Assembly: GCF_000378245.1 (NCBI RefSeq)
Contig: NZ_KB899498.1
Span: 124,001-188,000 of the forward strand
Direction of reading: 5' to 3'
Source: Aromatoleum toluclasticum ATCC 700605
GTDB lineage: Bacteria; Pseudomonadota; Gammaproteobacteria; Burkholderiales; Rhodocyclaceae
Length of the DNA stretch: 64,000 nucleotides
Translations under genes and position numbers: made by a program
The notes under the pieces: model-generated
Databases searched by the model: none
Seen by the model: the letters and a program-made list of their open reading frames with translations, nothing else
What the model was told of the DNA's origin: nothing
In this document: positions 2,222-46,198 of the stretch, piece by piece
Position numbering within the stretch: position 1 is the stretch's first letter
How the letters are laid out: every line of letters begins with the position of its first letter

Positions 2222-3052
2222 ATGAGCGAGCGAAAACTGGATGGCCGTGTCGCGATCGTGACCGGTGCGGCCGGCGGCCTCGGCGCCGAATCGGCCCGCG
2301 TGCTGGCGATGCACGGTGCGAGTGTGGCAATCACGGACATCGATCTCGACGGCGCACGCAAGGTGGCCGCCGAGATCGAGTCCGGCGGTGGGCGTGCGTT
2401 TGCCGTGCAGGCCGACGTGTCGTCCGAGGCGGATGTCGCGGCGATGGTCGCGGCGGTGGTGGACCGCTTTGGGCGAGTGGACGTCCTGTACAGCAATGCG
2501 GCGATCCTGAGCGTCGAGCAACGCCAGCGCGACCGCGACGTTGCCAACATGGACGTCGAGGCGTGGGATTGCGCGATGGCGGTGAATCTGCGCGGTGCGA
2601 TGCTGTGCGCCAAGTATGCGATTCGCGAGATGCTCAAGCAGAAGAAAGGCTCCCTGATCTTCGCGACCTCCGGGCTCGGCGCCCAAGGCGACCTGTCGCT
2701 GTCGGCCTACGCCGCCTCGAAGGCGGCGCTGATGATGCTCAGCAAGTCGATCGCGACCCAGTACGGCAAGGAGGGCATCCGCTCCAACGCGCTGCAGATC
2801 GGGCTCGCGCCAGCAGAGAATGCCCATGGGAGCATGCCGCCGGCCGTGATCCAGATCATCCGCGACAACCACCTCACGCCCGATGTCGGCACCCCGCGTC
2901 AGATCGCCGACGTGGTGGCCTTCCTCGCGTCCGACGAGTCGTCCTTCGTGACCGGCACGACGTTGGTCGCCGATGGCGGTTTCTCATGCCACACGCCCTC
3001 GCTTGTCGCGATGAAGGCCCTCTTCGCGCAGACCGGCGCGAAGAGTATGTAA
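2222..3052 (+). CDS. Short-chain dehydrogenase/reductase (SDR)
   Basis: 276 residues from the ATG after AGGAGACAGACAG; longer in-frame starts lie inside the crotonase gene and lack homology. The NAD(P)-binding motif TGAAGGLG is at residues 14-21, and Asp39 after the second strand (AITDID) suggests NAD preference. Catalytic Ser150, Tyr163 and Lys167 (YAASK) are all present, and the C-terminal VADGGF loop is typical. It likely oxidises a hydroxyl group, either a hydroxyacyl-CoA or a ring alcohol. It is co-directional with its neighbours and follows the crotonase by 40 bases. The substrate is not determinable. Confidence 0.92.
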   Translation: MSERKLDGRVAIVTGAAGGLGAESARVLAMHGASVAITDIDLDGARKVAAEIESGGGRAFAVQADVSSEADVAAMVAAVVDRFGRVDVLYSNAAILSVEQRQRDRDVANMDVEAWDCAMAVNLRGAMLCAKYAIREMLKQKKGSLIFATSGLGAQGDLSLSAYAASKAALMMLSKSIATQYGKEGIRSNALQIGLAPAENAHGSMPPAVIQIIRDNHLTPDVGTPRQIADVVAFLASDESSFVTGTTLVADGGFSCHTPSLVAMKALFAQTGAKSM

Positions 3053-3062
3053 GGGGTCGTCC

Positions 3063-3989
3063 ATGAAAGCAGCTGTCATCAGCGAGCGGGGTGCCGCTCC
3101 GGTCGTGCAGGAGTTTCCGGAACCGGCGCCACAGGAAGGCGCCGTCCTCATCGACATGGACACGGCAGGGCTCGGGGGCTGGGACGTACTCGGCGCGTAC
3201 CGGCTGGGCGTGCAATACCCGTGCGTGATCCGCGGCGAAGGCGTGGGCAGGGCACCGGACGGCCGCCGCGTGTATTTCGGCGAGCGCTCGGTGATGCCCT
3301 TCGGGGCGTGGGCAGAGCGTACGCTGGTGCCGGCCGATGAGGTCTGGGACGTGCCCGACGACGTCGACGACAAGACCGCGATCACGATGGGTATCGCCGC
3401 CACCGGCGCACTGGTGCCGCTCGAGCAGGCCAACATCCAGCGGGGTGAGCGGGTGCTGGTGCTCGGTGCCACCGGCACACTAGGGCAGGTCGCGCTGCAA
3501 CTCGCCCGCTATCTCGGCGCGGGCAGGGTCGTCGCGGCCGCACGCTCCGCCGAGACCCTGCAGCGCCTGAAGACGCGCGGGATTGCCGACGAAGTCGTGG
3601 CGCTCGGTAGCGAGAACGATGTCGCGGCGTTGAAGGACGCGGCGGGCGACGGTTTCGACGTCGTGCTCGATCTGGTGTGCGGGCAGCCGATGCTCAACGC
3701 CCTCAAGGCGACCCGATGGGGCGCACGCATCATGACGATCGGCACAGGTGCGGGGCGTCAGATCAATCTCGACATCGCCGATCTGCTTTTCCGCACGCTG
3801 TCATGCGTAGGTACGGGGCAGCGCCCGCCGGCCGATCGCCACGCGATCTGGGAGCGCCTGCTGCGCATCGCACACGCAGAGAATATCCAGGTCGACTACG
3901 CCGACTACACGCTGGATCAGGCCGCCGAAGCTTGGGCGTCGCAGATTGCCGGGCCGCACGCGAAGATCACCGCGCGAATCAGGGGCTGA
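3063..3989 (+). CDS. Medium-chain dehydrogenase/reductase, quinone-oxidoreductase-like
   Basis: 308 residues, MDR superfamily. An N-terminal GroES-like part is followed by the Rossmann motif VLVLGATGTLGQVALQLARYLGAGRVVAAARS. The catalytic zinc ligands of alcohol dehydrogenases are not evident, so it belongs with the zinc-free NADPH:quinone oxidoreductase or enoyl reductase group. It starts 10 bases after the SDR stop, so the two are likely translated from one mRNA. A role in reducing an activated C=C bond or quinone is inferred. The protein is slightly shorter than the usual 320-340 residues of the family. Confidence 0.85.
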   Translation: MKAAVISERGAAPVVQEFPEPAPQEGAVLIDMDTAGLGGWDVLGAYRLGVQYPCVIRGEGVGRAPDGRRVYFGERSVMPFGAWAERTLVPADEVWDVPDDVDDKTAITMGIAATGALVPLEQANIQRGERVLVLGATGTLGQVALQLARYLGAGRVVAAARSAETLQRLKTRGIADEVVALGSENDVAALKDAAGDGFDVVLDLVCGQPMLNALKATRWGARIMTIGTGAGRQINLDIADLLFRTLSCVGTGQRPPADRHAIWERLLRIAHAENIQVDYADYTLDQAAEAWASQIAGPHAKITARIRG

Positions 3990-4015: not shown

Positions 4016-4972
4016 ATGGGACGATGGTGGGCGGTCGCGCTGTCCGAGGCGGTGCACGGTGACAAGGCGCTCGCGGTGACTTGCGAAGGCGAGCAACTCG
4101 CCGTGTTTCGCGACGGGAAGGGCGCCGTGTTCGCGCTGGAGGACCGGTGCCCGCACCGGCGTGTGCCGCTGTCGCCCGGGCCCGTGAAACCCGGTGGTCT
4201 TCAGTGCCCCTACCACGGTTGGACCTTCGACGGCGCGACGGGCCTGTGCAATGACATTCCCAACCTGCGTCGCGATGAGCGGGTGCCGGCGCGTTATGCG
4301 GCGCGCGCCTTTCCGGCGGCCGAGGCGAACGGCTTCATCCACGTATGGCGGGGGGCGGGAACGCCCGCCGCCGTATTGCCCGGCGCGTGGTATCGCGCGG
4401 CAGGTCGCGAACAGACCGGTTCAGCGGTGGCCAATATCGCGTTCGACCAATATCTCGACGTGATGCTCGACGGCCCGGAATGCCTGCTTTCCTTCCCCGG
4501 CGTGCACATCACCGATTTCTTCCTCGGCGATCCGCGCCGCGACGGCGAGCATCTTGTCCTCGATCGAGGCGCGGTGTGGAAGGGCAAGGGAAATGGGCCG
4601 GCCTTCGTGCGAGACCATTCGCTCTGGGTACGTACTCGCGTACCGGTAAGGGGCGGTGACATTCGCGTGGAACTCCTCAGCGCCGAAGAAGATCCGCTCG
4701 TCACGATCTTCATCGCTGCCAGCGAGAACAGGCGGGGTACCACCAGTCTGGTCTGGCGCGGTTTTCTTCATGCCATGGCAGCGCCGCTGCCGTGGCGGTG
4801 GCGGACGGCGCGGGCTATCGGACGTGCTCCGTTCGCAATCTTCCCCCATATCGACGGCGCAGCCGTGGCGGCACTCGAAGTCGCACCGTCACGAGATCGC
4901 AGATTGGCGAAGACCGATACGAGGATGCCGGCCGAGCGCGTGGTGCCGGTGCAGGAGAGGTGCGCAGTATGA
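4016..4972 (+). CDS. Rieske [2Fe-2S] protein with degenerate oxygenase catalytic domain
   Basis: 318 residues from the ATG after GGGGAGGCTGGGC. A complete Rieske site is present: Cys45-Pro-His47 (RCPHRR) and Cys64-x2-His67 (CPYHGW). The rest resembles a ring-hydroxylating oxygenase alpha subunit, but the mononuclear iron motif is missing. Aligned to the neighbour's DLTHADFLH, this protein reads DVMLDGPEC (148-156), with Leu and Cys where the two His ligands should be. It probably carries electrons but cannot bind the catalytic iron. The next gene overlaps by four bases and has exactly the opposite defect, which suggests a two-protein oxygenase. The match to Rieske proteins is sure; the pairing is inference. 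Confidence 0.88.
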   Translation: MGRWWAVALSEAVHGDKALAVTCEGEQLAVFRDGKGAVFALEDRCPHRRVPLSPGPVKPGGLQCPYHGWTFDGATGLCNDIPNLRRDERVPARYAARAFPAAEANGFIHVWRGAGTPAAVLPGAWYRAAGREQTGSAVANIAFDQYLDVMLDGPECLLSFPGVHITDFFLGDPRRDGEHLVLDRGAVWKGKGNGPAFVRDHSLWVRTRVPVRGGDIRVELLSAEEDPLVTIFIAASENRRGTTSLVWRGFLHAMAAPLPWRWRTARAIGRAPFAIFPHIDGAAVAALEVAPSRDRRLAKTDTRMPAERVVPVQERCAV

Positions 4973-6012
4973 GCGAAGTCCCGATGATGGATGCGGCAGG
5001 GCGCGAAGCGGAGGCGACCTCCAAGCGCGACTGGGTACCGGTCAATCTCGATCTGCGCGACACCTGGTTTCCGGTCGCCTACAGTGCCGACATCGGCGAG
5101 CGGGCGGTACGCCGTATCGTCCATGCGCAGGACGTATATCTATGGCGCGACGGCGGGAGGTTATATGCGGCGGAGTTTCGCCCCGACCGCCTTGAAGCGA
5201 TGCGCGCCGGCGCAAGTGCCTTCACGAACGGCTCCGGTTTCTATCCGGCTGTCGAGCGCTACGGGTATATCTGGGCGTGGTACGGAAACCCCGATAACGT
5301 GCACGAGGAACTGATCCCGAACATCCCCTTCCTGCCCCCCGATGGTCAGGGGATCCCCCGCTACACACAGCGCGCGGTGCGCTTTGATGCGGCCTCGCCG
5401 CTGTCCGTCGAGAACCTCATCGATCTGACACATGCCGACTTTTTGCATGCCAACGCGATCGGTGACGGCCAGTCCGAGAACGATGTCGTCGAGGTCCATT
5501 CGACCTCCGAGACGGTGACTCGCATCCGCAACGTCACCCGCAAGTCGGTGGCACCGGTGATGCGCTGGATCGGAGGCGTACGCGCCCAGTACCAGGATCT
5601 GCGCGCAGTGCTGCATGTCCATCTGCGCAACAACGTGTGCATCTCTTACCCGAACTTCACCCCGGGCTACCCGATTCCGAACGTGCAGCCCTTTGTGCCT
5701 GTCGGCAAGCACCGTTCTCGTGTTGACCAGACGAACTACACTGTCCACGCGCCGGCACCGTTTCGCTGGCTGATGCCGCGCATCTCCTACGTGATCCAGC
5801 CACAGGACAACTCGGTGCTGCGCCCTCAGAACGCGCGCTATTTCGAGTCCACCGAACGCCGCGACCTGAGCTCGCGTTTCGACGGCCCCGGCAATCGCTA
5901 CCGATTGCTGATGATGCGTCTCGCCGAGAGGCAGCAGCGCGGGGACTTCGGCTACGGCGCCGATGCTGACCCGAGTGCCGACATTTCGGCAGTGCTCGGC
6001 ATGCGGGGCTGA
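4969..6012 (+). CDS. Rieske-type oxygenase catalytic domain lacking the Rieske cluster
   Basis: 347 residues, with an ATGA overlap with the upstream gene. The N-terminus begins like a Rieske oxygenase (DTWFPVAYSADIG, residues 31-43), but the Cys-x-His and Cys-x2-His pairs are absent, and residues 56-100 contain no Cys at all. The catalytic domain keeps ENLIDLTHADFLH (148-160), giving the Asp152/His155/His160 arrangement of the mononuclear non-haem iron site. The third iron ligand could not be assigned. It may receive electrons from the Rieske domain of the overlapping partner, as described for NdmC with NdmD in caffeine demethylation. A non-oxygenase role is also possible. Confidence 0.85.
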   Translation: MSEVPMMDAAGREAEATSKRDWVPVNLDLRDTWFPVAYSADIGERAVRRIVHAQDVYLWRDGGRLYAAEFRPDRLEAMRAGASAFTNGSGFYPAVERYGYIWAWYGNPDNVHEELIPNIPFLPPDGQGIPRYTQRAVRFDAASPLSVENLIDLTHADFLHANAIGDGQSENDVVEVHSTSETVTRIRNVTRKSVAPVMRWIGGVRAQYQDLRAVLHVHLRNNVCISYPNFTPGYPIPNVQPFVPVGKHRSRVDQTNYTVHAPAPFRWLMPRISYVIQPQDNSVLRPQNARYFESTERRDLSSRFDGPGNRYRLLMMRLAERQQRGDFGYGADADPSADISAVLGMRG

Positions 6013-6060: not shown

Positions 6061-7233
6061 GTGATCCTGGCGGGCTTGGCGATGCTCGGCCCGTTTTCGA
6101 TCAACACCTACCTTCCATCCTTCGGGGAAATGGCGGTGGTGCTCGGCACGGATCGAGTCGCGTTGCAGCAGACAGTGGCGATCTACTTCGCCGCCTTTGC
6201 CTTCATGGCCCTGTGGCATGGCACGATCTCGGATTCCTTCGGGCGCCGCCGCGTGGTGCTGGCCGGTCTGGTCGTCTATGCATTGGCGTCGCTCGGATGC
6301 GCGCTTGCGACGCAAGTGGAGCAGTTGTGGGTTCTGCGGGCACTCCAGGGCTTCTCGGCGGGGGCCGGGATCGTGATCGGTCGCGCCGTCGTCCGGGACC
6401 TGCATGAAGGGCCGCGTGCGCAGCGCATGATGTCGCAGGTGGTGTTGATGTTCTCGATCGCACCTGCCGTCGCTCCTTTGGTGGGCGGCTGGTTGCAGGT
6501 CGCGCTGGGCTGGCGCTCCGTATTCGTGTTCCTGTGCCTGCTTTCCACCAGCCTGCTCGTCGCCGTGTTTTTCGGATTACCGGAGACCCTGCCAGCCTCG
6601 CAGCGTCACCCGTTCAATCCGGCGGGTGTGCTTCGCGGTTACGCGTCCGTGCTCGGAAACGCGCGCTTCATGAGCTGGGCACTGGCGTATGCCTGCATGT
6701 TCGGCGGCTTCTTCCTTTACGTCCTGTCTGCGCCGGTGTTCCTGATGGAGCATCTTGGCCTGGGCGAGACCGATTTCCTGTGGATGTTCGGACCTGCGAC
6801 GGTGGGGCTGATGTTGGGTTCCGCGCTTGCGGGCCGCCTTGCGCAGCGCTGGTCCACGGCATCCACGCTGAATACCGGGTTCGCGATCATGGCTGCCGCC
6901 ACGCTCTGGAATCTCGCCGTGTGCCTCGTCGAACCCGGCGGCACGGCGTGGTATGTGGCGTATCTCCTGTTCTTCAATCTGGGCATGTCGGTGATGATTC
7001 CAACGATCACGGTGCGCGGCCTGGATTGTGTACCGGAGCGCCGCGGCACCGGCTCATCGGTTCAGCTGTTCATCCAGACGGGATTCAACGCCTGGATTGC
7101 CGCGGTGCTGGCGCCACTGATGTGGCATTCGCTGCTGTCGCTCGCGCTGGGAGCCGCTGCTCTTGCCCTGTGCGGCGTCCTCGGGGTGGCCGTGGCGGGC
7201 CGCCTGTCCAGCATCTCCGAGGCCCATCAATGA
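6061..7233 (+). CDS. MFS transporter, Bcr/CflA drug-resistance type
   Basis: 390 residues as called from a GTG. About 12 hydrophobic segments are visible. The MFS loop signature DSFGRRRVVLAG lies after the second segment and RALQGFSAGAGIVIGRAVVRDL after the fourth, typical of the Bcr/CflA subfamily. The N-terminal FSINTYLPSFGEM matches the first helix and periplasmic loop of that group. The start is uncertain: no ATG is available, the frame is open back to the preceding gene's stop at 6012, and the GTG lacks a strong ribosome site. It probably exports substrate or a toxic intermediate. It is the last gene of the plus-strand operon, 44 bases from a convergent gene. Confidence 0.85.
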   Translation: MILAGLAMLGPFSINTYLPSFGEMAVVLGTDRVALQQTVAIYFAAFAFMALWHGTISDSFGRRRVVLAGLVVYALASLGCALATQVEQLWVLRALQGFSAGAGIVIGRAVVRDLHEGPRAQRMMSQVVLMFSIAPAVAPLVGGWLQVALGWRSVFVFLCLLSTSLLVAVFFGLPETLPASQRHPFNPAGVLRGYASVLGNARFMSWALAYACMFGGFFLYVLSAPVFLMEHLGLGETDFLWMFGPATVGLMLGSALAGRLAQRWSTASTLNTGFAIMAAATLWNLAVCLVEPGGTAWYVAYLLFFNLGMSVMIPTITVRGLDCVPERRGTGSSVQLFIQTGFNAWIAAVLAPLMWHSLLSLALGAAALALCGVLGVAVAGRLSSISEAHQ

Positions 7234-10678: not shown

Positions 10679-11248
10679 CTAAAGGATCACGCCCAGGTTG
10701 GGGGTGCCGATGACGACTTGGTCGAGCAGGATCTCGCGGCGAGCGAGTTTCAGCGCGCCATCCTCACGGCGCAGGATGTCGTGGCGGACGCAGGGGATCA
10801 GGTCGAAGTAGTCGAAATCGAAACGGCTGCGTGTAAGGAGCAGATAGCTCTCGACCTTCAGGTCATCGCTGTCGTCGATTCGGTAGACGCGTACGTTCGT
10901 GACCAGACGCTTGATGCGCGATGGCGGATCCTCGCCCCAGGCGCTCTTGGTGTCGGTAATGCGCTTGACCCGCATGAGCATCGAGCCGTAATTCTCGTGC
11001 AGGTGCTGGACGTTGCGCGAATAGGTCTGGTCGAACTGGGACGTCGAACGGGTATGGCGCAGGGGCGCGTTGTATTCGAGGTCCTTGGTGAGCAGCTCCG
11101 CCCATTCGCCGAGGCGCAGGTTGTCGAGCATTTCGGCTTCGTCATAGAGGAAGTCGAGCACCTCGTTGTAGGTATCGCTGCCGGAGGGAATACGGTTCGC
11201 CTTGATCGAGGGCGGCAGCGGAGTCGGTTCGAGCAGTTGCTGAAGCAT
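10679..11248 (-). CDS. Ring-hydroxylating oxygenase beta subunit
   Basis: 189 residues, the usual size for the small (beta) subunit of Rieske ring-hydroxylating oxygenases, a SnoaL/NTF2-like cone fold. Recognisable stretches are FLYDEAEMLDNLRLGEWAEL near residue 33 and the later strands LLTRSRFDFDYFDLIPCVRHDILRR. Beta subunits contribute to alpha3beta3 assembly and sometimes to substrate choice, and have no catalytic metal. The start lies 39 bases after the alpha-subunit stop with AGGAGACC as ribosome site. No ferredoxin or reductase gene is in the cluster, so electron donors must come from elsewhere. Confidence 0.85.
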   Translation of the reverse strand: MLQQLLEPTPLPPSIKANRIPSGSDTYNEVLDFLYDEAEMLDNLRLGEWAELLTKDLEYNAPLRHTRSTSQFDQTYSRNVQHLHENYGSMLMRVKRITDTKSAWGEDPPSRIKRLVTNVRVYRIDDSDDLKVESYLLLTRSRFDFDYFDLIPCVRHDILRREDGALKLARREILLDQVVIGTPNLGVIL

Positions 11249-11287
11249 GGAGGTCTCCTGAAGTAGGGGTAAGTAGTCGCGCTGTGA

Positions 11288-12682
11288 TCAGTTCTCGGCA
11301 GTCATCAGTTCGTACCAGTATTCCCACCAGCGCCACTGGGTGTCGTCCTTCGTGAAGCCGTCGCCGACATCGCCAGGGCCCGGCCAGCCTTCGAGCCTGT
11401 TGTTCTCGTACATCGACTGATACTTCATCGTGATGTGCTTGCTCACGGCACCCTTCGCCGCGAGCGTCTGGTGCGGCCAAGTGTCCGAATCGTCCTGCTC
11501 GACCATCCCCGAAGTGCCCAGGAGTTGGACGCCGAGGCGCAGCATCTTGGCCTTGAGATCCGGCGGAGTGTCCTTCTCGGCCAGGATCCAGTTCACGAAT
11601 TCCAGCTTGTCCGGCCCCTTCGGGACATAGGCGTGCAGCGCCATGACCCCGATCACGCCATCGGGCGAGGGGATGTAGACGAACTCGAACAGCCCGTTGG
11701 GAAAGAAGTTGCCCACTTGGGGCGGACGCCAGGCCATGACGCGCAGCTGGTCATCGCTGAAGCGACGGAGCACTTCCGGCAGCATCTCGGGCGTGATGCC
11801 CGGCGGGGGCAGCGCTTCGAGTTTCTCCTTGATCGACAACTCGCTCGGGTCCTTCCCCGTCAGGCGTCGGATCTTGCGGTCCAGCTCGATGCATCGCATC
11901 GTGTGTGCGTGCGCGGTGTAGACCTCGGTGCCGTACATCTCCGGTGTCAGGTCGCCGCCGCCACCTTCGCTGCCCGGCTTGCGATAGGGGCCCACTTCCG
12001 ATAGCCAGCGGTGCAGGGTCAGCACATGGAATCCGTCCGACGCCGACTGCTCGCAGGCAGTCTTCCAGTTCGCACGGATCGTGAAACGCTGCGGGGGACC
12101 CAGCACTTCCATGCCCTTGTCAGTACGGCACCAGAGCGTGTCGAAATACCATTTCGCGTCGCCGAGGAAGTCCTCGAAGCTAGGGCCCTCGATGTTCCAC
12201 GTCGCGAAGACCAAGCCGCCATAGATCGCGACGCGCGCCTTCTTCAGGCCGAGTTCCTGCTTGGTCATCATCTTCCCGTGCATGCATTCCTTCTCGACCG
12301 GCGCGCCGATGAAGTCGCCGTTCGGCTTGAATGCCCAGCCGTGGTAGATACAGACGTGAGTCATCGTGTTACCCACGTCATGGGTCGAGATCTTCATGCC
12401 CCGATGGGGGCAGACGTTGAGGGAGACGTACACCTCGCCGTCCGCCCCGCGTGCCATCAGCACGGAATCCGATCCCATGTCGCGGACGACGAAATCGCCC
12501 TTGTTCGGGATTTCAGTTTCGTGGCCGAGGAATACCCAGGTCTTGGCGAAGATGCGCTCCATCTCGAGCTCGAACAGTTCGGGATCGGAAAGCGCCCGCA
12601 TCTTGACTTCGCGGGTTTCGAGGTTGATCAGGTCGGAAAGCAGGGTGCCGTCCGAGAGTTTGGGGTTTGATGTTCTGTCCAT
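11288..12682 (-). CDS. Ring-hydroxylating oxygenase alpha subunit (Rieske, complete)
   Basis: 464 residues. The Rieske site is Cys91-x-His93 (NVCPHRGMK) with Cys111-x2-His114 (CIYHGW). The mononuclear iron motif is present as ASDGFHVLTLH with Asp216, His219 and His224. It is therefore a complete large subunit, unlike the two half-degenerate proteins at 4-6 kb. It would insert one or both oxygen atoms of O2 into an aromatic or alicyclic substrate. It is the first gene of a minus-strand operon with beta subunit, amidohydrolase, flavoprotein and a small protein. AGGAGGAGG precedes the ATG. The upstream region holds a perfect inverted repeat. Confidence 0.93.
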   Translation of the reverse strand: MDRTSNPKLSDGTLLSDLINLETREVKMRALSDPELFELEMERIFAKTWVFLGHETEIPNKGDFVVRDMGSDSVLMARGADGEVYVSLNVCPHRGMKISTHDVGNTMTHVCIYHGWAFKPNGDFIGAPVEKECMHGKMMTKQELGLKKARVAIYGGLVFATWNIEGPSFEDFLGDAKWYFDTLWCRTDKGMEVLGPPQRFTIRANWKTACEQSASDGFHVLTLHRWLSEVGPYRKPGSEGGGGDLTPEMYGTEVYTAHAHTMRCIELDRKIRRLTGKDPSELSIKEKLEALPPPGITPEMLPEVLRRFSDDQLRVMAWRPPQVGNFFPNGLFEFVYIPSPDGVIGVMALHAYVPKGPDKLEFVNWILAEKDTPPDLKAKMLRLGVQLLGTSGMVEQDDSDTWPHQTLAAKGAVSKHITMKYQSMYENNRLEGWPGPGDVGDGFTKDDTQWRWWEYWYELMTAEN

Positions 12683-35745: not shown

Positions 35746-35857
35746 GGGGCGTCGTGTCGCCGATCTCGGCGTAGATTTCCACTCGGTTGTGGCAGGTACG
35801 CCCCGCGCGGGCGCACACCGACTGCCGGTTGCGGCATTCGCAGATGAGGAGGAAGCA

Positions 35858-37063
35858 ATGGCCGACATCCCGTCGCTCGGCAAGGATCGTCCCTCGCCGG
35901 CTTGGATCGACGATGTGCGTCGCCGATTTCCGGTGGAGCGCGAGATCGACCGGGTGCTCACCCGGAAGCTGCTACAGCGCGCCGGGCCGGGCTATGTACC
36001 TCAGGGGCTCGATGCCCTTTGCCAAGGTGTCGAGGCCTTGCTGCGCGCCGAGCTCGACACGCCGTTCCAGATTCGGCAGCCGAAATGGCTGGCAGGCGGC
36101 GCTTCGAAGCTGCAGATGGCATTCGATCTGGTCTGGACGCGCCCGGGCGTCGGGCCAACCACGACGCGCATGGTGTTGCGCATGGAACCTGCCGAGTCCG
36201 CCGTCGAGACCAGCCGGCTGCGCGAATTCCAGCTCATCAAGGCGTTCGAGGGGATCGTTCCGGTGCCGCCGGCGTTCTGGGTCGACATGGACGGAACGTA
36301 CTTTCCCTATCCGGCGATCGTCTACGGCTTCGCGGACGGCGTCACGAAACCCAGTGAAGCCGTAAGCAACGTGAGTGGGACGGGAATCAACTTCGGTCCT
36401 GCGCTGCGGCCGGTGCTCGGCCCGCAGTACGTCGAGCACCTCGCGCGAATCCACACGGCCGACTGGCGCAACGCCGATCTCTCCGCCTTCGATGTGCCGG
36501 CCCTGGGGACGCAGGCGGTCGAATGGCAGATCAACTGGTGGGAGCGGGTGTGGGCGGAGGACGCCAACGAGGCAGTGCCGCTGCTGGATTTCGCCGCCTC
36601 GTGGCTGCGCCGCAACATGCCGCCGGTGGATCGCCTCTCCGTGGTGCACGGCGACTTTCGCGCCGGCAATTTCCTCTATCGCGAGGACGATCAGCGCATC
36701 AGCGCCTGGCTCGACTGGGAGCTCGGCCACCTCGGGGACCGGCATGAGGATCTGGCGTACTCGCTCAACCTCATCCATGGGCACAAGACCGAGGACGACC
36801 GTACCTTCCTCGTCATGGGCCTCATGCCGACGGACGAATTCTTCGACAGCTACGAAAAGGCCTCCGGGCTGAGCGTCGATCCCAAAGTCATCCGGTATTA
36901 CCAGATCCTCAACTGCTACAAGCTCGCGGTGGTCACGCTCGGCACGACCTACCGAACGGCACGCGGCGGCAAGACGCATCAGGACGTTCTGCTCGCCTGG
37001 CTGATTGGCGCGGGTTATGTGATTACCGAAGACCTGCGACGCAATCTCGAAGAAGTCGCGTGA
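35858..37063 (+). CDS. APH-fold acyl-CoA kinase-like phosphotransferase, copy 1
   Basis: 401 residues from the ATG after GAGGAGGAAGCA. The kinase loop is VVHGDFRAGNFL with His264, Asp266 and Asn271, followed by the metal-binding Asp286 in WLDWELGHLGDRHEDLAY. The N-terminal part is conserved with the two following copies (LQMAFDLVWTRPG, ESAVETSRLREFQLIKAFEG). The fold is that of aminoglycoside phosphotransferase, but in CoA-pathway clusters these proteins are hydroxyacyl-CoA kinases (LvaA of Pseudomonas; the kinase part of ACAD10/11). Here that activity is inferred from context. It is the first of three tandem copies. Confidence 0.9.
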   Translation: MADIPSLGKDRPSPAWIDDVRRRFPVEREIDRVLTRKLLQRAGPGYVPQGLDALCQGVEALLRAELDTPFQIRQPKWLAGGASKLQMAFDLVWTRPGVGPTTTRMVLRMEPAESAVETSRLREFQLIKAFEGIVPVPPAFWVDMDGTYFPYPAIVYGFADGVTKPSEAVSNVSGTGINFGPALRPVLGPQYVEHLARIHTADWRNADLSAFDVPALGTQAVEWQINWWERVWAEDANEAVPLLDFAASWLRRNMPPVDRLSVVHGDFRAGNFLYREDDQRISAWLDWELGHLGDRHEDLAYSLNLIHGHKTEDDRTFLVMGLMPTDEFFDSYEKASGLSVDPKVIRYYQILNCYKLAVVTLGTTYRTARGGKTHQDVLLAWLIGAGYVITEDLRRNLEEVA

Positions 37064-37104
37064 CGGAACCGGGACGGCAGGCGCCGCGCAGGGCCCTCTC
37101 CTCG

Positions 37105-37126
37105 CCCCCCCCGTTCGGGGGTGTTT
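37105..37126. promoter_or_regulatory. C-run/G-run element before kinase copy 2
   Basis: Eight C, GTTC, five G and TGTTT, a near-palindrome between kinase copy 1 and copy 2 and about 80 bases upstream of the 37206 start. It matches the elements at 26834 and 41465 in layout, including the trailing TTT. Confidence 0.45.
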
Positions 37127-37205
37127 CCACCGGCCGGCGCGCAATAACTTGTTCGGACGGGGCAGCAGACCCCGCTTCAGGACGAACATCAGGAGACAGA
37201 CGCTC

Positions 37206-38402
37206 ATGGCTGCCATCGACAAGAATCGCCCCTCGGAAGAATGGATTGCCGAGATGCGGCGACGCTTTCCGTGCGAGGCGGAAATCGATCGAGTGCTCAC
37301 GCACAAGCTGCAGCGACGCGCAGGGCCGGGCTATTCGCCGGTGAGCCTGGAGACGCTGTGCAAAGGGATCGAAGCGCAACTGAAGGACAAGTTGGATGAT
37401 CGCTTCGAGATCCTCGAGCCGAAGTGGCTCAACGGCGGCGCGTCCAAAGTGCAGATGGCGTTCAAGCTGCGCTGGACGCAGCCTGGGGTCGGCGCGACCG
37501 TGACGCGCCTGGTCCTGCGCATGGAGCCGGCCGAGTCGATTGTCGAGACGAGCCGGCTGCGCGAATTCCAGCTCATCAAGGCGATGGAGGGGGTCGTGCC
37601 GGTGCCGCCGGTGTTCTGGGCCGATCCGCAGGCGAAGTACTTCCCGTACCCCGCGATCATCTACGGGTTCGCTGACGGCGTCGCGAAGCCGACCGGTAGC
37701 GTCAGCAACGTCACCGGCCTCGGGATCAATTTCGGCCCGCGGTTGCGCCCGATCCTGGGCCCGCAGTTCGTCGATCATCTGGCGAAGATCCACCTTGCCG
37801 ACTGGACGAAGGCTGACTTGAGCGCCTTCGATATTCCCGCGCTCGGCACCCAGGCGGTCGAATGGCACCTGAACTGGTGGGACCGGGTGTGGGAGGAGGA
37901 CTTCAACGAGGACGTCCCGCTATTGCGATTCACCGCCGCGTGGCTGCGCGCCAATATGCCGCCGATCGATCGTCTGTCAATCATTCACGGCGACTACCGC
38001 GCCGGGAATTTCCTCTACACCGAGCACGACAACCAGATCACGGCGTGGCTCGACTGGGAGCTCGGCCACCTTGGCGATTATCACGAAGACGTCGCGTATG
38101 CGATCAAGGACAGCTCCGGCCACTACGCCGAGGACGGCAAGACCTTCCTGGTCAACGGGCTGATGACGGCCGACGAGTTCGTCGAGCAGTACGAGAAGGC
38201 GTCGGGGCTGCCGATCGACATGAAGGCCGTCAGGTACTACGACGTCGTTCAGGCCTACAAGTCCTGCGTCATCGTGCTGGGTACCGGCTATCGCGCGGTG
38301 CGGGGCGGCAAGACGCATCAGGACATCGTCCTTCAGTGGCTCAGCGGGGTCGGCTACCCGATCCTCGAAGAGCTGCGCCAACTTCTCGAGGAGGTTGCTT
38401 GA
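37206..38402 (+). CDS. APH-fold acyl-CoA kinase-like phosphotransferase, copy 2
   Basis: 398 residues from the ATG after AGGAGACAGACGCTC. The catalytic loop is IIHGDYRAGNFLYTEHDNQI (His261, Asp263, Asn268), then WLDWELGHLGDYHEDVAY. Aligned by eye to copies 1 and 3 it shares the same domain order and a long run of near-identical segments, such as ESIVETSRLREFQLIKAMEG. It is the only copy followed directly by a small partner gene, one base after its stop. The truncated copy at 25.8 kb resembles this one in the YTEHDN segment. A 4-hydroxyacyl-CoA-type kinase role is inferred. Confidence 0.92.
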   Translation: MAAIDKNRPSEEWIAEMRRRFPCEAEIDRVLTHKLQRRAGPGYSPVSLETLCKGIEAQLKDKLDDRFEILEPKWLNGGASKVQMAFKLRWTQPGVGATVTRLVLRMEPAESIVETSRLREFQLIKAMEGVVPVPPVFWADPQAKYFPYPAIIYGFADGVAKPTGSVSNVTGLGINFGPRLRPILGPQFVDHLAKIHLADWTKADLSAFDIPALGTQAVEWHLNWWDRVWEEDFNEDVPLLRFTAAWLRANMPPIDRLSIIHGDYRAGNFLYTEHDNQITAWLDWELGHLGDYHEDVAYAIKDSSGHYAEDGKTFLVNGLMTADEFVEQYEKASGLPIDMKAVRYYDVVQAYKSCVIVLGTGYRAVRGGKTHQDIVLQWLSGVGYPILEELRQLLEEVA

Positions 38403-38403
38403 A

Positions 38404-38961
38404 ATGGAAATTCGTCCCGCAATTCAGATCCAGAGCATGATCAAGGCCATGACCGATGTCGTCCTGCCGGCGGTGGACCCGGAACACAAGATGGCGCAGG
38501 AACAGGCCCGGCTCGTCATCGGCATGCTCAATCTGCTCGCCCAGCGCTTGCCGTTGCAGTTCCGCTACGACTGCGACGAGCTCAAGCGCTACGTCACGCT
38601 GGCCGCCCAGTTGCAGGAGCAGGTGCACGGCGCCGACAAGACCCGTGCGGCCACCGAGACGATGAACGCCTGTCTGTCGAAAGGGGCCGCGGTGCTCGAC
38701 CGCGCGCGCGCCGAGCCCGGCGAAGTGGAGGCCGCGGTGTTCGATCTGCGTGCGGCCGTCAGCGCGCTGGTGCAGGCAGCGGCCGAGGAGGGCGATCCGT
38801 CCAGCCGCGATGCGCTCAAGCAGCTGATTCTCGGCGCCGCGAAGATTCAGCTCGATCGCGAGCGGGCGTGGCTCATCTCGATGGGCTTCGAAGCCGATCC
38901 GTCCGTCGTGCCCCCGATCGAAAGCCTGATCGGTGCGGGGCCGGGGGCCGCGCACGGCTGA
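38404..38961 (+). CDS. Kinase-partner small helical protein
   Basis: 185 residues, starting one base after the copy-2 kinase stop. It is predicted mostly helical: EIRPAIQIQSMIKAMTDVVL, then AQEQARLVIGMLNLLAQRLPLQFRYDCDELKRYVTLAAQL, and a C-terminal GFEADPSVVPPIESLIG. A second version lies at 26251-26787 behind a truncated kinase. In the levulinate operon of Pseudomonas putida, LvaA (kinase) needs the small protein LvaB made from the adjacent gene. Location and pairing here suggest an analogous subunit. I cannot show homology to LvaB from memory, so that link is tentative. Confidence 0.8.
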   Translation: MEIRPAIQIQSMIKAMTDVVLPAVDPEHKMAQEQARLVIGMLNLLAQRLPLQFRYDCDELKRYVTLAAQLQEQVHGADKTRAATETMNACLSKGAAVLDRARAEPGEVEAAVFDLRAAVSALVQAAAEEGDPSSRDALKQLILGAAKIQLDRERAWLISMGFEADPSVVPPIESLIGAGPGAAHG

Positions 38962-38991
38962 CCCGCTTCCGCAGCGGCCGCCTCGGCTAAT

Positions 38992-39029
38992 GGGCGGGAC
39001 TCAGGCGGAAAGCGGCCCGAGTCCCGCCC
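38992..39029. terminator. Hairpin between kinase-partner gene and kinase copy 3
   Basis: GGGCGGGACTC (38992-39002) pairs exactly with GAGTCCCGCCC (39019-39029) around 16 bases. It may end or attenuate transcription after the partner gene, giving copy 3 separate regulation. Confidence 0.55.
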
Positions 39030-39095
39030 GCCGACGCGCATTGGACTCCGCCGCGATGTGAGTGACGACTGGCGAAAACGTGAGGTGGGCCGACG

Positions 39096-40292
39096 ATGAT
39101 CGTTGATAAGTGTCATCCTCAACCGGCGTGGATCGAATCGCTCAGGGATCGCTTTCCCTGCGAGGCCGAAATCGACCGCATCCTGACCCGCAAGCTGCAG
39201 CGGCGCAGCGGGCACGGCTATTCTCCCGTCGCCCTGGAAACGCTGTGCGAGGGGGTGCGCCGGCTGCTCCGCGAGGAAGTCGAAGGGCCGTTCGAGGTGC
39301 TGGAACCCCGGTGGCTGTCGGGCGGCGCGTCGAAGGTCCAGATGGCGTTCAAGCTGGCCTGGAACCGCCCGGGCGTCGGGCGGACGACGACTCCGATGGT
39401 GCTGCGCATGGAGCCGGCTGAATCGATCGTCGAGACCAGCCGGCTGCGCGAATTCCAGCTGATGAAGGCGATGGAGGCGGTCGTGCCGGTGCCGCGGGTG
39501 TTCTGGCTCGATGCGGAAGGAAAGCATCTTCCTTACCCGGCGATGATCTGCGGCTTCGCCAGCGGCGTCGCAAAGCCGACAGCGGCGGTCGCGGGCGGGC
39601 CTTCCGGGCTTGGCACGAACTTCGGCCCGGCAGTCCGCGCCGTGCTCGGCCCGCAGTTCGTCGAGCACCTGGCCGCGATTCACGCCCACGACTGGCGCAC
39701 CTCCGACTTGAGCGCCTTTGACGTGCCCGCCCTCGGGACGCAGTCGGTGGAGTGGCAGCTCAACTGCTGGGCGCGGGTGTGGGAAGAGGACGCCAACGAG
39801 GACGTGCCGCTGCTGCGCTATGCGGCGAGCTGGTTACGCGCGAACATGCCGCCGGTAGACCGCATCTCGGTGGTCCACTCGGACTACCGCTCGGGCAACT
39901 TTCTCTACGACGAGCGCAGCAACCGGATCACCACGATCCTCGACTGGGAGCTCGGCTTCCTGGGCGACCGGCACCTCGACATCGCCTTCGTCACCAATCC
40001 GGCGTTCGGCCATCTGTCGGAGGACGGCAAGACCTTCCTCGTCGGCGGCCTCATGACCCAGGAGGCGTTCTACGAGGCTTACGAGAAGGCGGCGGGCATG
40101 AAGATCGACCGGAAGACGGTCGATTTCTATCGCGTCTTCAATGCGTACAAGCTCGCCACCCTTGCGCTTGGGACCACTTACCGGGCGGCGCGGGGCGCCA
40201 AGACGCACCAAGACGTTGTGCTCACCTACCTGATCGGAGTGGGCTACACCATTCTCGAAGAGCTTCGCGCGCTGCTGGAGGCGCTCGACTGA
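39096..40292 (+). CDS. APH-fold acyl-CoA kinase-like phosphotransferase, copy 3
   Basis: 398 residues. The catalytic loop is altered to VVHSDYRSGNFLYDERSNRI (His261, Ser262, Asp263, Asn268), with Ser in place of the usual Gly; the truncated copy at 25.8 kb shares this HSD form. ILDWELGFLGDRHLDIAF supplies the second Asp. Overall layout and length match copy 2. GAGGTGGGCCGACG precedes the ATG. With copies 1 and 2 it forms a tandem family with diverged specificity. The nearby phosphatase and acyl-CoA dehydrogenase genes make a phosphoacyl-CoA route plausible. Confidence 0.9.
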   Translation: MIVDKCHPQPAWIESLRDRFPCEAEIDRILTRKLQRRSGHGYSPVALETLCEGVRRLLREEVEGPFEVLEPRWLSGGASKVQMAFKLAWNRPGVGRTTTPMVLRMEPAESIVETSRLREFQLMKAMEAVVPVPRVFWLDAEGKHLPYPAMICGFASGVAKPTAAVAGGPSGLGTNFGPAVRAVLGPQFVEHLAAIHAHDWRTSDLSAFDVPALGTQSVEWQLNCWARVWEEDANEDVPLLRYAASWLRANMPPVDRISVVHSDYRSGNFLYDERSNRITTILDWELGFLGDRHLDIAFVTNPAFGHLSEDGKTFLVGGLMTQEAFYEAYEKAAGMKIDRKTVDFYRVFNAYKLATLALGTTYRAARGAKTHQDVVLTYLIGVGYTILEELRALLEALD

Positions 40293-42990: not shown

Positions 42991-44826
42991 ATGAAGACAT
43001 TAAGCCGGTCCAAAGGCCGCTTGGCTCTGACTACCATCGCTGGCTTATTGGCGGCCGGATTTTCCGGCGGTGCTTCGGCCATTACTGAATTCGAATTTGG
43101 CGACGGCTGGCAGGGGGCTTGGTCGACCACAGTAAGTCTTGGTACCAGTATTCGGGCTCAGGACCGCAATCGAAAGCTCTATGGGCCCGCCAATGGTCAT
43201 CTCATCGGCCTAAGGGGCGGCTTGGGTGCGAACAATAACGACGAGGGCAACCTCAACTACGAAAAAGGCGATGCCTTTTCCACGCTGCTCAAAGTCATCA
43301 GCGAGGTCGAGTTCAAGAAGGGAGATATGGGCGGTCTCATCCGTGCGAAGGCTTGGTACGACTACACCCAAAGCGAACAGGACGTGCACTGGGGCAACCA
43401 GCCCAACGGATACAACGGCTACGACCTTGGGAGCGACAGGTTGACTAGAAAGCGCCCGCTATCGGACAAGGGGTACGATGACCTGCTTCGATTCGAGGGA
43501 ATCGAGTTGCTGGACGCATTCGTCTACGACACTTTCGATGTTGGCGGCAATCCGCTTCAAGTTCGGCTGGGCAAGCAAGGGTTGAACTGGGGCGAAAGCA
43601 TGTTCATCGCTGGCGTAAATCAGATCAACCCCATCGACATTCCCGCAGCTCGTCGTCCCGGTGCTCAAGTAAAAGAGGTGTTGATGCCGGTCTGGATGGC
43701 GTCGGCGAACCAAAGTCTGGGTGAGGCTGGCAGCGTGGAAGCTTTCTACCAGTTCAAATGGGCAGCCTCTCCTGTCGACGGATCGTGCGGCAATTACTGG
43801 TCCACGGCAAACGCCATCATTTCGACGCATCCGGGTAACTGCTTCAACATCACCGCGTTGGACTCGGCGAATGTGTCGACCCCCCAGGCGTTGGCCAGCA
43901 ATACTTTTGCACGCCAGATCAAGGGTGACGATGCAAAGGATACGGGGCAGTTCGGTGTGGCATACCGGCTCCGATCGAATCCCCTGGATACCGAGTTCGG
44001 CTTGTACGCGATGAAGATCCATGCGCGCCTTCCGACCTTCACGCTTAAATTCGGCGACTTCGGCACCCCGTCGCCGGTTGCGGGCCTGTATGAATACAAG
44101 GAAGACATCAAGGTCTATGGCGCGAGCGCGTCGACGACTCTCGGTGGCGTGTCGGTCAGCGCCGAACTGAGCACAACGCGCGATTACCCGCTCCAGTTGG
44201 ATGGAACTGACATGTTCTTCGGCGCGTTTGGCGCCGGCCCACTGGCGGGCCGGGCCGCCGCAGCGGCGGCCTCTTCGAACCGAACCTTCCATGGGTACGA
44301 TCTGATCAACAAGAACCAGTTCCAGATGAACTTCATGCAGGCCGGCAACCGGGTGCTGGGTGCGGACCAGTACGCACTGCTGGGCGAGATCGCCTACCAG
44401 TGGAACGATAAGGATAAGGACACCCGCTACGGGCGGCCGTCGATCTTCGGCATAGGTCCTCATTCCTCGCTCGGCGGCAATACCTGCGCCACGCTGAACC
44501 GGCATCCCGACGGCTGTTCGTCGAACGACGGCTACGTCACGCGGGATTCCTGGGGTTACCGATTGTACGGGCAGCTCGAATATACCAACGTCCGCAACAG
44601 CGGCGTGACCGTGACGCCCAGCGTCTTTTGGGCGCATGACGTCGATGGATACGCCGCGGACGGGGCATTCATCGAAGATCGCACGACGCTCGGACTCGGG
44701 GTCAAGTTCAGCTACGCAAAGAAATACGTCCTCGATCTCGGCTACACCCGATATGGCGACGAAGCGAAGTTCGACCCGCTTCGGGATCGTGACTACTACT
44801 CGGCGAACTTCAGCGTAACCTTCTAA
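42991..44826 (+). CDS. DUF1302 outer-membrane beta-barrel protein
   Basis: 611 residues with a Sec signal peptide (MKTLSRSKGRLALTTIAGLL..., cleavage after about residue 30, SGGASA). The mature protein is rich in Tyr, Asn and alternating hydrophobic residues, and ends YYSANFSVTF with the C-terminal Phe used by the Bam complex. This matches the DUF1302 family of outer-membrane porin-like proteins found in hydrocarbon, terpenoid and steroid degraders. It probably admits or exports the hydrophobic substrate. It is the first gene of a four-gene export set, with GGAGTGAGACG before the ATG. Confidence 0.92.
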   Translation: MKTLSRSKGRLALTTIAGLLAAGFSGGASAITEFEFGDGWQGAWSTTVSLGTSIRAQDRNRKLYGPANGHLIGLRGGLGANNNDEGNLNYEKGDAFSTLLKVISEVEFKKGDMGGLIRAKAWYDYTQSEQDVHWGNQPNGYNGYDLGSDRLTRKRPLSDKGYDDLLRFEGIELLDAFVYDTFDVGGNPLQVRLGKQGLNWGESMFIAGVNQINPIDIPAARRPGAQVKEVLMPVWMASANQSLGEAGSVEAFYQFKWAASPVDGSCGNYWSTANAIISTHPGNCFNITALDSANVSTPQALASNTFARQIKGDDAKDTGQFGVAYRLRSNPLDTEFGLYAMKIHARLPTFTLKFGDFGTPSPVAGLYEYKEDIKVYGASASTTLGGVSVSAELSTTRDYPLQLDGTDMFFGAFGAGPLAGRAAAAAASSNRTFHGYDLINKNQFQMNFMQAGNRVLGADQYALLGEIAYQWNDKDKDTRYGRPSIFGIGPHSSLGGNTCATLNRHPDGCSSNDGYVTRDSWGYRLYGQLEYTNVRNSGVTVTPSVFWAHDVDGYAADGAFIEDRTTLGLGVKFSYAKKYVLDLGYTRYGDEAKFDPLRDRDYYSANFSVTF

Positions 44827-44839
44827 AGAGGACGAAGAC

Positions 44840-46198
44840 ATGAAAATCACTCGATGCATTCGCGCAATCGCCTGCGCAGTCGCCCTGCTGGGTGGGGCGA
44901 CCACGGCTTGGTCCGCGGTCACTCAGGCCGAGGCCGACCGCCTCGGCAAGGACCTCACGCCCACCGGGGCGGAAAAGGCCGGCAACAAGGACGGGACGAT
45001 TCCGGCGTGGGACGGCGGCCTGACGAAGGCGCCCGCCGGGTGGAAACCGGAACAGGGCTACGTCGATCCATTCGCATCCGAGCAGCCGCTGTTCACAATA
45101 ACCGCTGAGAACGTCGAGCAGCATAAGGACAAATTGTCACCCGGCATGGTGGCCATGCTGAAGAAGTATCCCCAGACGTTCAGGATGCCAGTCTATAAAA
45201 GCCATCGCACGTTTGCCGCTCCGCAGCACGTGTATGACCAAACCAAGAAACTGGCGGTCCAGACAAGTCTCGACGGCCTGACCATCAATAACTTCAACAT
45301 GGGTGGGTATCCCTTCCCAATCCCGAAAACCGGCACCGAAGTCATGTACAACCACCAGACGCGGTGGTACGGCGGCTACAATCATTGCGGAGACTGGCTA
45401 CCGACGCGCTTCAACGGCGAGTTCTACCGGGTCGGGTTCTGCGAGGAGGTGTATCAACCCACCAACATGGATAGGGGTAATGGGCCGAACGACCTGTTCT
45501 TCTATTTCGCCTGGTACGACGCGCCTTCGACGCTGGCTGGCACCGTATACTTGGTCCACGACTCGATCGACAAGACCAAGGGCGATCGCGCCGCGTGGAT
45601 CTACAACGCCGGCCAGCGGCGCGTGCGTCGCGCGCCCAACGTCGCCTACGACAACATCGACGACGGCACCGAGGGCATGCGTACCACCGACGACCACTGG
45701 GGCTTCAATGGTCCGATGGATCGTTATGACTGGAAGCTTGTCGGCAAGAAGGAAATGTATGTTCCTTACAACGCCTACAAGCTGGGTGATTCGAAGCTCA
45801 AGTACCAGGACATGGTCGACAAGGGGCATCTCAAGTCGGATTTGATGCGCTATGAGCTTCACCGTGTATGGGTGGTCGAGGCGACGCTCAAGGAAGGCAT
45901 GTCGCACGTGTTGCCGAAGCGGGTGTTCTACCTCGACGAGGACAGCTGGATGGTGACGCTCGCCGACGGCTACGACAGCCGCGGCAACTTATGGCGAGTG
46001 TATTCCGAGCCGATGATCCAGCTCTATGACGTACCGCTCATGATACAGCGCGCCTACATGGTTCACGACCTGCAAAACGGCAACTACATCGTGTCGAACG
46101 TCGACAACGAAAGGCCGCAGCCTGCCATGACCTTCAACAAGACGGGCAAGTTCGCCGACTTCCAAGTGGATGCGATCCGTCGTAAAGGGACGAGGTAG
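44840..46198 (+). CDS. DUF1329 periplasmic/outer-membrane protein
   Basis: 452 residues with a signal peptide (ends around WSA, residue 26). The DUF1329 signature is visible at the mature N-terminus: TQAEADRLGKDLTPTGAEKAGNKDGTIPAWDGG, a strongly conserved opening. It continues with YNNH-like aromatic patches (MYNHQTRWYGGYNHCG). DUF1329 proteins have a LolA-like fold and always occur next to DUF1302 barrels. The gene starts 13 bases after the DUF1302 stop, so the two are co-translated. The likely role is carrying a hydrophobic ligand to or from the barrel. Confidence 0.92.
   Translation: MKITRCIRAIACAVALLGGATTAWSAVTQAEADRLGKDLTPTGAEKAGNKDGTIPAWDGGLTKAPAGWKPEQGYVDPFASEQPLFTITAENVEQHKDKLSPGMVAMLKKYPQTFRMPVYKSHRTFAAPQHVYDQTKKLAVQTSLDGLTINNFNMGGYPFPIPKTGTEVMYNHQTRWYGGYNHCGDWLPTRFNGEFYRVGFCEEVYQPTNMDRGNGPNDLFFYFAWYDAPSTLAGTVYLVHDSIDKTKGDRAAWIYNAGQRRVRRAPNVAYDNIDDGTEGMRTTDDHWGFNGPMDRYDWKLVGKKEMYVPYNAYKLGDSKLKYQDMVDKGHLKSDLMRYELHRVWVVEATLKEGMSHVLPKRVFYLDEDSWMVTLADGYDSRGNLWRVYSEPMIQLYDVPLMIQRAYMVHDLQNGNYIVSNVDNERPQPAMTFNKTGKFADFQVDAIRRKGTR

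Follow-up and report, generated by a model that had tools for sequence, protein, structure and literature searches.

Do two adjacent genes of Aromatoleum toluclasticum ATCC 700605, each encoding a Rieske oxygenase-like protein with one of the two usual metal sites missing, specify a single enzyme between them? The genes lie in a stretch of 64,000 nucleotides (the window; contig NZ_KB899498.1), both on the + strand and in different reading frames, and their products are called P1 and P2 here. The features on which the answer depends are the following, with positions counted from the first base of the window.

4016-4972, + strand: P1, putative Rieske-only subunit, an alpha-type Rieske oxygenase protein with its iron site lost (318 aa)
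4025-4273, + strand: Rieske [2Fe-2S] domain of P1, residues 4-86, with ligands C45, H47, C64 and H67 (Pfam PF00355)
4457-4483, + strand: degenerate iron-site helix of P1, residues 148-156, DVMLDGPEC (alignment of 89 rows)
4969-6012, + strand: P2, putative catalytic iron subunit with a Rieske-fold remnant that has no cluster motif (347 aa)
5422-5448, + strand: iron-site motif of P2, D152-x2-H155-x4-H160 (90/90 P2 rows)
5800-5829, + strand: PQDNSVLRPQ motif of P2, containing Gln287 and Asp280, the latter probably the third ligand of the iron (90/90 P2 rows)

The initial annotation described the genes as overlapping by four bases. The bases ATGA are indeed common to both, but the exact overlap hinges on the start codon chosen for P2, and across the family the spacing between the two genes runs from -17 to +66 bases with mechanically picked starts. 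Neither protein holds both sites together in one chain in the manner of Rieske non-heme iron oxygenases: the Rieske motif is found in P1 only, and the iron triad with the relay Asp in P2 only.

For P1, the description of a complete Rieske site beside a lost mononuclear iron motif is borne out by the translation, the Pfam scan and all 89 aligned rows. The translated motif reads C45-x-H47...C64-x2-H67, and its four ligands are kept in 89/89 rows. Residues 4-86 match PF00355 with an E value of 4e-22 (PF13806 is weaker), and the Pfam scan returned Rieske-type models only, with no catalytic-domain model and no FAD, NAD or Fer2 domain in P1. At the former iron site, L151 and C156 occupy the positions of the His pair; position 151 is His in none of the 89 rows and position 156 in one, and the C-terminal segment that carries the third-ligand Asp in ordinary relatives is absent from P1 in the alignment. 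Strings of the form D/E-x2-H-x4-5-H do occur in three of the 89 rows (DDKHLVLDH twice, DSVHVALDH once), outside the iron helix, and are taken as chance. Position 148, the equivalent of the relay Asp, has drifted (Asp in 31/89 rows, Ala in 42/89) while its P2 counterpart is invariant, which is what one would expect of a P1 that has ceased to accept electrons. Other positions of the catalytic half are well kept: Asp152 of P1 is found in 89/89 rows and Pro154 in 88/89, and D152, W188, R240 and W247 are near-invariant.

P2 presents the reverse picture. Pfam gives a single match, PF19112 (the catalytic domain VanA_C), over residues 139-321 with an E value of 1.5e-26, and P2 carries ENLIDLTHADFLH as well as PQDNSVLRPQ. 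Asp152, His155, His160, Asp280 and Gln287 are kept in 90/90 rows, the invariance of Asp152 and His155 being partly built in because the scan pattern ENLIDLTH, by which relatives were found, includes them; H160, D280 and all P1 counts are free of this bias. The proposal that P2 keeps an iron site made of Asp152, His155 and His160 thus stands as far as conservation goes, but not in the role given to Asp152, which we take to be the inter-subunit electron-relay residue of Rieske oxygenases; judging from the alignment, the third iron ligand is most likely Asp280, within a QD-x6-Q motif. Likewise, the statement that P2 lacks all Rieske ligands holds for the motif, which is present in 0/90 rows (the first Rieske loop has other residues and the second is deleted in the alignment), but single His residues persist at Rieske positions in some rows, namely at column 71 near Cys45 in 56/90 and at column 73 near His47 in 11/90.

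To what extent the two proteins belong together was followed through other genomes, as the initial annotation had proposed. P2 relatives were sought in one genome per species (84,980 genomes) with two peptide patterns, one being ENLIDLTH and the other a WFP motif close to the N-terminus; 95 were found, of which 80 were kept and 15 were not returned. P1 lies directly upstream on the same strand in 79 of the 80 loci; in the remaining one (L052) the contig starts only within P2. Many soil and water bacteria, many of them Pseudomonadota, have thus retained the two genes side by side; among the hosts are Massilia, Zoogloea, Pseudomonas, Halopseudomonas, Stutzerimonas, Paraburkholderia, Polaromonas, Sphingobium, Novosphingobium and Acidocella. 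Loci of Aromatoleum toluvorans and Thauera encode P2 at 98-99% identity. In Pseudomonas fluorescens PS662 two P1-P2 loci (L046 and L047) occur on different contigs, possibly a recent duplication.

A P1 without P2 was sought in a family sample, a class sample and plasmids. Seven of 297 family genomes, the window's own included, contain P1 at E 1e-30, and all seven also encode P2; among 369 class genomes, P1 was found at E 1e-40 in the own genome only. In four of 72,556 plasmid records, P1 and P2 are both matched over 80% or more of their length. One is from Massilia putida (P2 83% identity, P1 69%), two are from Croceicoccus marinus and the fourth is from Novosphingobium resinovorum (P2 about 43% and P1 34-35% outside Massilia); in each plasmid inspected, three of the four, the two genes are adjacent. 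Every full-length P1 found in the family genomes and plasmids was accompanied by P2. Among 398 phylum genomes, 41 gave a P2-profile match at E 1e-10, the sole strong one being the window's own (699 bits); the next matches reach at most 55 bits and cover roughly residues 88-236. A stand-alone homologue with the missing ligands restored would have spoken against a shared function, and none was recovered: the 11 P2-profile relatives fetched (L092-L102) are all ordinary oxygenases with Rieske and iron motifs in one chain. No P2 match was found in phages.

Some contigs appear twice among the 89 P1 rows (L004/L011, L006/L021 and L007/L019) and close relatives are present too; the P1/P2 rows collapse to 43 pairs below 90% P2 identity. 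The complementary ligand pattern holds down to a pairwise identity of 27% for P1 and 38% for P2 and, as judged from these alignments, is beyond chance. Values of dN/dS in two same-genus comparisons were 0.30 for P1 and 0.06-0.11 for P2, indicating purifying selection on both. In a tree of 40 rows, 14 P1 proteins form one clade (support 100/99) and 14 P2 proteins another (100/100), and the two clades have the same main split: seven loci, six of them alphaproteobacterial (mostly sphingomonads) and one from Porticoccaceae, group in both halves (100/100 for P1, 85/88 for P2). The place of the two clades among ordinary oxygenases is unsure owing to long branches. P1 and P2 distances correlate at 0.97, a value obtained with no control gene and expected for any co-inherited neighbours. 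Compared as profiles, P2 and P1 matched only weakly (probability 20%, E 0.0012), so that the case for their common ancestry is the oxygenase fold found in both.

That fold was examined by structure prediction. The window's P1, folded alone with 51 rows, gave a pLDDT of 89.7 and a pTM of 0.87. Each of its 50 listed PDB rows is a Rieske oxygenase, at TM scores of 0.41-0.63 and rmsd of 4-12 Å. According to the model, P1 keeps the two-domain oxygenase fold along its length; the moderate TM scores and the rmsd range imply that its domain placement may differ from that of the usual chain. A tethered P1-P2 chain was modelled from the Pseudomonas profundi locus (L028) by reading through the stop codon (93 rows, 15 paired), with a pTM of 0.81 and a pLDDT of 84.5 (76.0-84.2 in the other four of five models). 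Only one stretch of at least three residues falls under pLDDT 50, namely 306-338, roughly at the linker, and a further 59 residues lie at pLDDT 50-70; the 50 PDB rows listed for this model are again all Rieske oxygenases. Its pTM, compared with the value near 0.5 that reasoning, with no control chain, leads us to expect if the halves could not be placed relative to each other, suggests a defined packing of P1 against P2, although tethering can itself favour packing of this homologous chain. Formation of a P1-P2 complex is inferred from this one tethered model.

The genes around the pair provide a metabolic setting, and those closest to it are listed here.

378-1343, + strand: glyoxalase-superfamily protein (by a weak Pfam match that stays under the curated cut-off; the Massilia plasmid has it next to the pair too)
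1345-2181, + strand: enoyl-CoA hydratase family protein (Pfam)
2222-3052, + strand: short-chain dehydrogenase, SDR (start picked; the Pfam scan used 2243-3049)
3063-3989, + strand: zinc-type alcohol dehydrogenase, directly upstream of P1 (Pfam)
6061-7233, + strand: MFS transporter, directly downstream of P2 (Pfam; putative start codon)

The gene order runs DUF1302, DUF1329, YCF48-like and MMPL (upstream of the window), then glyoxalase-like, enoyl-CoA hydratase, SDR, zinc dehydrogenase, P1, P2 and MFS, and the annotated Massilia plasmid matches it. Farther genes encode HcaE-like alpha and beta dioxygenase subunits, acyl-CoA dehydrogenases, an AMP-ligase, an aldehyde dehydrogenase, thiolase/HMG-synthase-like proteins and an OYE; the surroundings of P1 and P2 are a CoA-dependent catabolic island. 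The DUF1302/DUF1329/YCF48/MMPL module together with the CoA enzymes hints, ambiguously, at hydrophobic ring compounds, none of them named, as do flavoproteins resembling KstD, with scores under the NCBIfam cut-offs, in two sphingomonad loci; the literature on DUF1302/DUF1329 yielded no further lead. From the catabolic island, the substrate might belong to the hydrophobic alicyclic or isoprenoid/steroid-like compounds, a suggestion we make only weakly. A Fer2-type ferredoxin gene is found near the pair in 33/83 loci, some of them short contigs (Pfam checked on one). The window's own P1-P2 cluster contains no ferredoxin gene; of the 23 Fer2 matches in its genome, the one closest to the pair is on the same contig, about 86 kb away in an FAD/NAD reductase.

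Several further observations concern this neighbourhood in its own right. An HcaE/HcaF-like ring-hydroxylating dioxygenase, alpha and beta, is encoded at 10679-12682 of the window, with counterparts near the pair in L014, L017, L022, L052 and L063, and probably belongs to the same pathway as the pair. Three proteins of the aminoglycoside-phosphotransferase fold (PF01636) cluster in the catabolic island (window 35789-40289), and a PF01636 gene also occurs near the pair in Paraburkholderia fungorum (L025:798-1949). A single region holds two DUF1302/DUF1329 modules (window 42991-46195 and L104:3413-10294), one with YCF48-like and MMPL genes, which perhaps serve the transport of hydrophobic substrates. 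Elsewhere, a sulfotransferase-family gene lies near the pair in 21 loci (L009:2035-3390 and relatives), and a sulfatase gene in Sphingobium TCM1 (L063:125-1822). F420-dependent-like LLM-class oxidoreductases are encoded beside the pair in Novosphingobium resinovorum pSA2 (L010:13425-16819) and in L009 (4118-5146 and 8017-9072); the L010 pair also stands beside the annotated F420 genes cofC, cofH and npdG, and reliance on F420 seems unusual for a catabolic cluster of a sphingomonad.

Taken together, sequence, fold class and genetics show P1-P2 to be a real, conserved two-protein Rieske oxygenase. We further consider it likely that P1 and P2 are obligate subunits of one heteromeric oxygenase of the VanA/DMO type in which electrons pass from P1 to P2. 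The transfer itself, already suggested by the initial annotation, is favoured by the complementary losses, the pairing, the parallel clades and the tethered packing, and, like the complex, is something we infer. Two alpha-type chains would have lost complementary cofactor sites to give rise to P1 and P2, and a ferredoxin or reductase would feed electrons into the [2Fe-2S] cluster of P1. From there electrons may cross between the subunits and reach the mononuclear iron of P2 by way of its relay residue Asp152, with O2 activation and substrate binding taking place at P2 only. As to assembly, the two proteins are likely to form heterodimers, either single or joined as a trimer. For the electrons between the two proteins, direction and route are likewise proposed, and the use of a ferredoxin is suggested by the Fer2-type genes linked in 33/83 loci.

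The complementary losses could be read in other ways. Instead of being a stable subunit, P1 might be a dissociable, dedicated carrier of electrons, in effect a Rieske ferredoxin that has kept a redundant domain, and might serve P2 only transiently and perhaps other oxygenases too. Its Rieske domain is better conserved than the remainder (mean 0.68 vs 0.53), ferredoxin subunits are among its NCBIfam matches, and NdmD gives the Rieske-less NdmC an extra Rieske in trans, as described in the available text of PMC4408171. Against this, P1 has the oxygenase fold along its length and the near-invariant residues named above, every full-length P1 found in the family genomes and plasmids was accompanied by P2, the tethered model packs, and the ferredoxins linked to 33/83 loci suggest that the carrier role is already filled there; we regard this reading as unlikely. 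Considerably less probable still is that both are decaying or non-oxygenase pseudoenzymes with structural or regulatory functions and no electron transfer. Each protein does lack a normally essential metal site, but the site that remains is lost in none of the rows (43 pairs below 90% P2 identity) and purifying selection acts on both genes, whereas decay would erode both sites.

Overlap of the genes in different frames might also suggest an ordinary oxygenase split by a sequencing frameshift or another artefact. We give this hardly any credence, as each protein spans both domains, so that the pair is not one gene cut in two, and the arrangement recurs in 79/80 scanned loci and on plasmids. A sequencing frameshift or pseudogene was ruled out by the recurrence in other genomes together with dN/dS, and the fission of one oxygenase gene by the presence of both domains in each protein.

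Two-chain Rieske oxygenases have a precedent in algae. The chlorophyllide a oxygenase of Micromonas pusilla (MpCAO1 and MpCAO2) is made of two chains, which have been termed a heterodimer and suggested to form a trimer of dimers (PMC9615114). In the work of Kunugi et al. in 2013, which PMC9095832 and PMC7794896 cite, one chain reportedly has the Rieske motif and the other the mononuclear-iron motif, and both chains are reported to be needed. P1-P2 resembles this enzyme as a two-chain Rieske oxygenase and, going by that work, in its complementary motifs. The view that a decayed oxygenase serving as donor is undescribed was therefore too strong. MpCAO belongs to algal chlorophyll biosynthesis, whereas P1-P2, set against it by description, is bacterial, encoded by adjacent genes, of the VanA/DMO type and located in a catabolic cluster.

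The parallel that the initial annotation drew with NdmC/NdmD, a Rieske-less catalytic protein served by the cluster of another protein, agrees with the accessible part of PMC4408171, in which NdmC, having no Rieske cluster, uses that of the reductase NdmD together with NdmE. In this 7-methylxanthine demethylase of Pseudomonas putida CBB5, the catalytic protein is Rieske-less as P2 is, but, from the same portion of the source, the Rieske cluster belongs to a flavin reductase and the system requires a GST-like protein, whereas P1 carries its cluster on a decayed oxygenase without reductase domains. No Pfam match to a GST-like protein of the NdmE type was found among 40 proteins scanned around the pair in this genome, and membership in NdmCDE was rejected on the Pfam scan, P1 having no reductase-fused Rieske. 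A 2025 review includes, in its accessible text, the NdmA/NdmB alpha3-alpha'3 assembly among the C3 oligomers of Rieske oxygenases (PMC12445004); this heterohexamer is like P1-P2 in joining two different alpha-type chains in one oxygenase, but according to the accessible part of PMC4408171 NdmA possesses both a Rieske cluster and a non-heme iron, as does NdmB, in contrast to the single site in each of P1 and P2. PMC8399759, in its available text, deals with ordinary KshA. By analogy, P1-P2 may work like MpCAO and, less closely, like NdmCD. In the openly accessible portions of the literature, a search for split bacterial Rieske oxygenases brought up papers on NdmC but none in which the donor is a decayed oxygenase, which is weak evidence of absence.

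DMO, GdmA, SxtT/GxtA and SdmA are single-chain enzymes with both sites. Structures of DMO (3GKE), GdmA (7QWT) and SxtT/GxtA are among the nearest solved folds, and the nearest NCBIfam model is the 4beta-methylsterol monooxygenase SdmA, at 65 and 22 bits against a cut-off of 600.

More tentatively, and with appreciable doubt, P1-P2 could represent a widespread bacterial class of Rieske oxygenases, heteromeric by necessity, in which electron delivery and catalysis are divided between paralogous chains and the dead domain of P1 has acquired a new job. The invariant Asp152 and near-invariant Pro154 at the former iron helix of P1 are the basis for this reading, under which the domain might act in gating, in substrate channelling or in locking a one-way ring that allows transfer from P1 to P2 only.

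In the homotrimers of Rieske oxygenases, electrons are transferred between subunits and every chain has both sites, so that neither half-reaction can be mutated or reduced on its own unless wild-type neighbours are present. If our reading is true, mixing subunits that hold one site each would give a clean test of the inter-subunit step, the oligomeric state and the relay Asp in a natural bacterial enzyme. For annotation, a simple rule follows, which is to name the P1 and P2 genes as subunits of one enzyme. P1-P2 suggests a bacterial counterpart to the two-chain chlorophyllide a oxygenase of algae.
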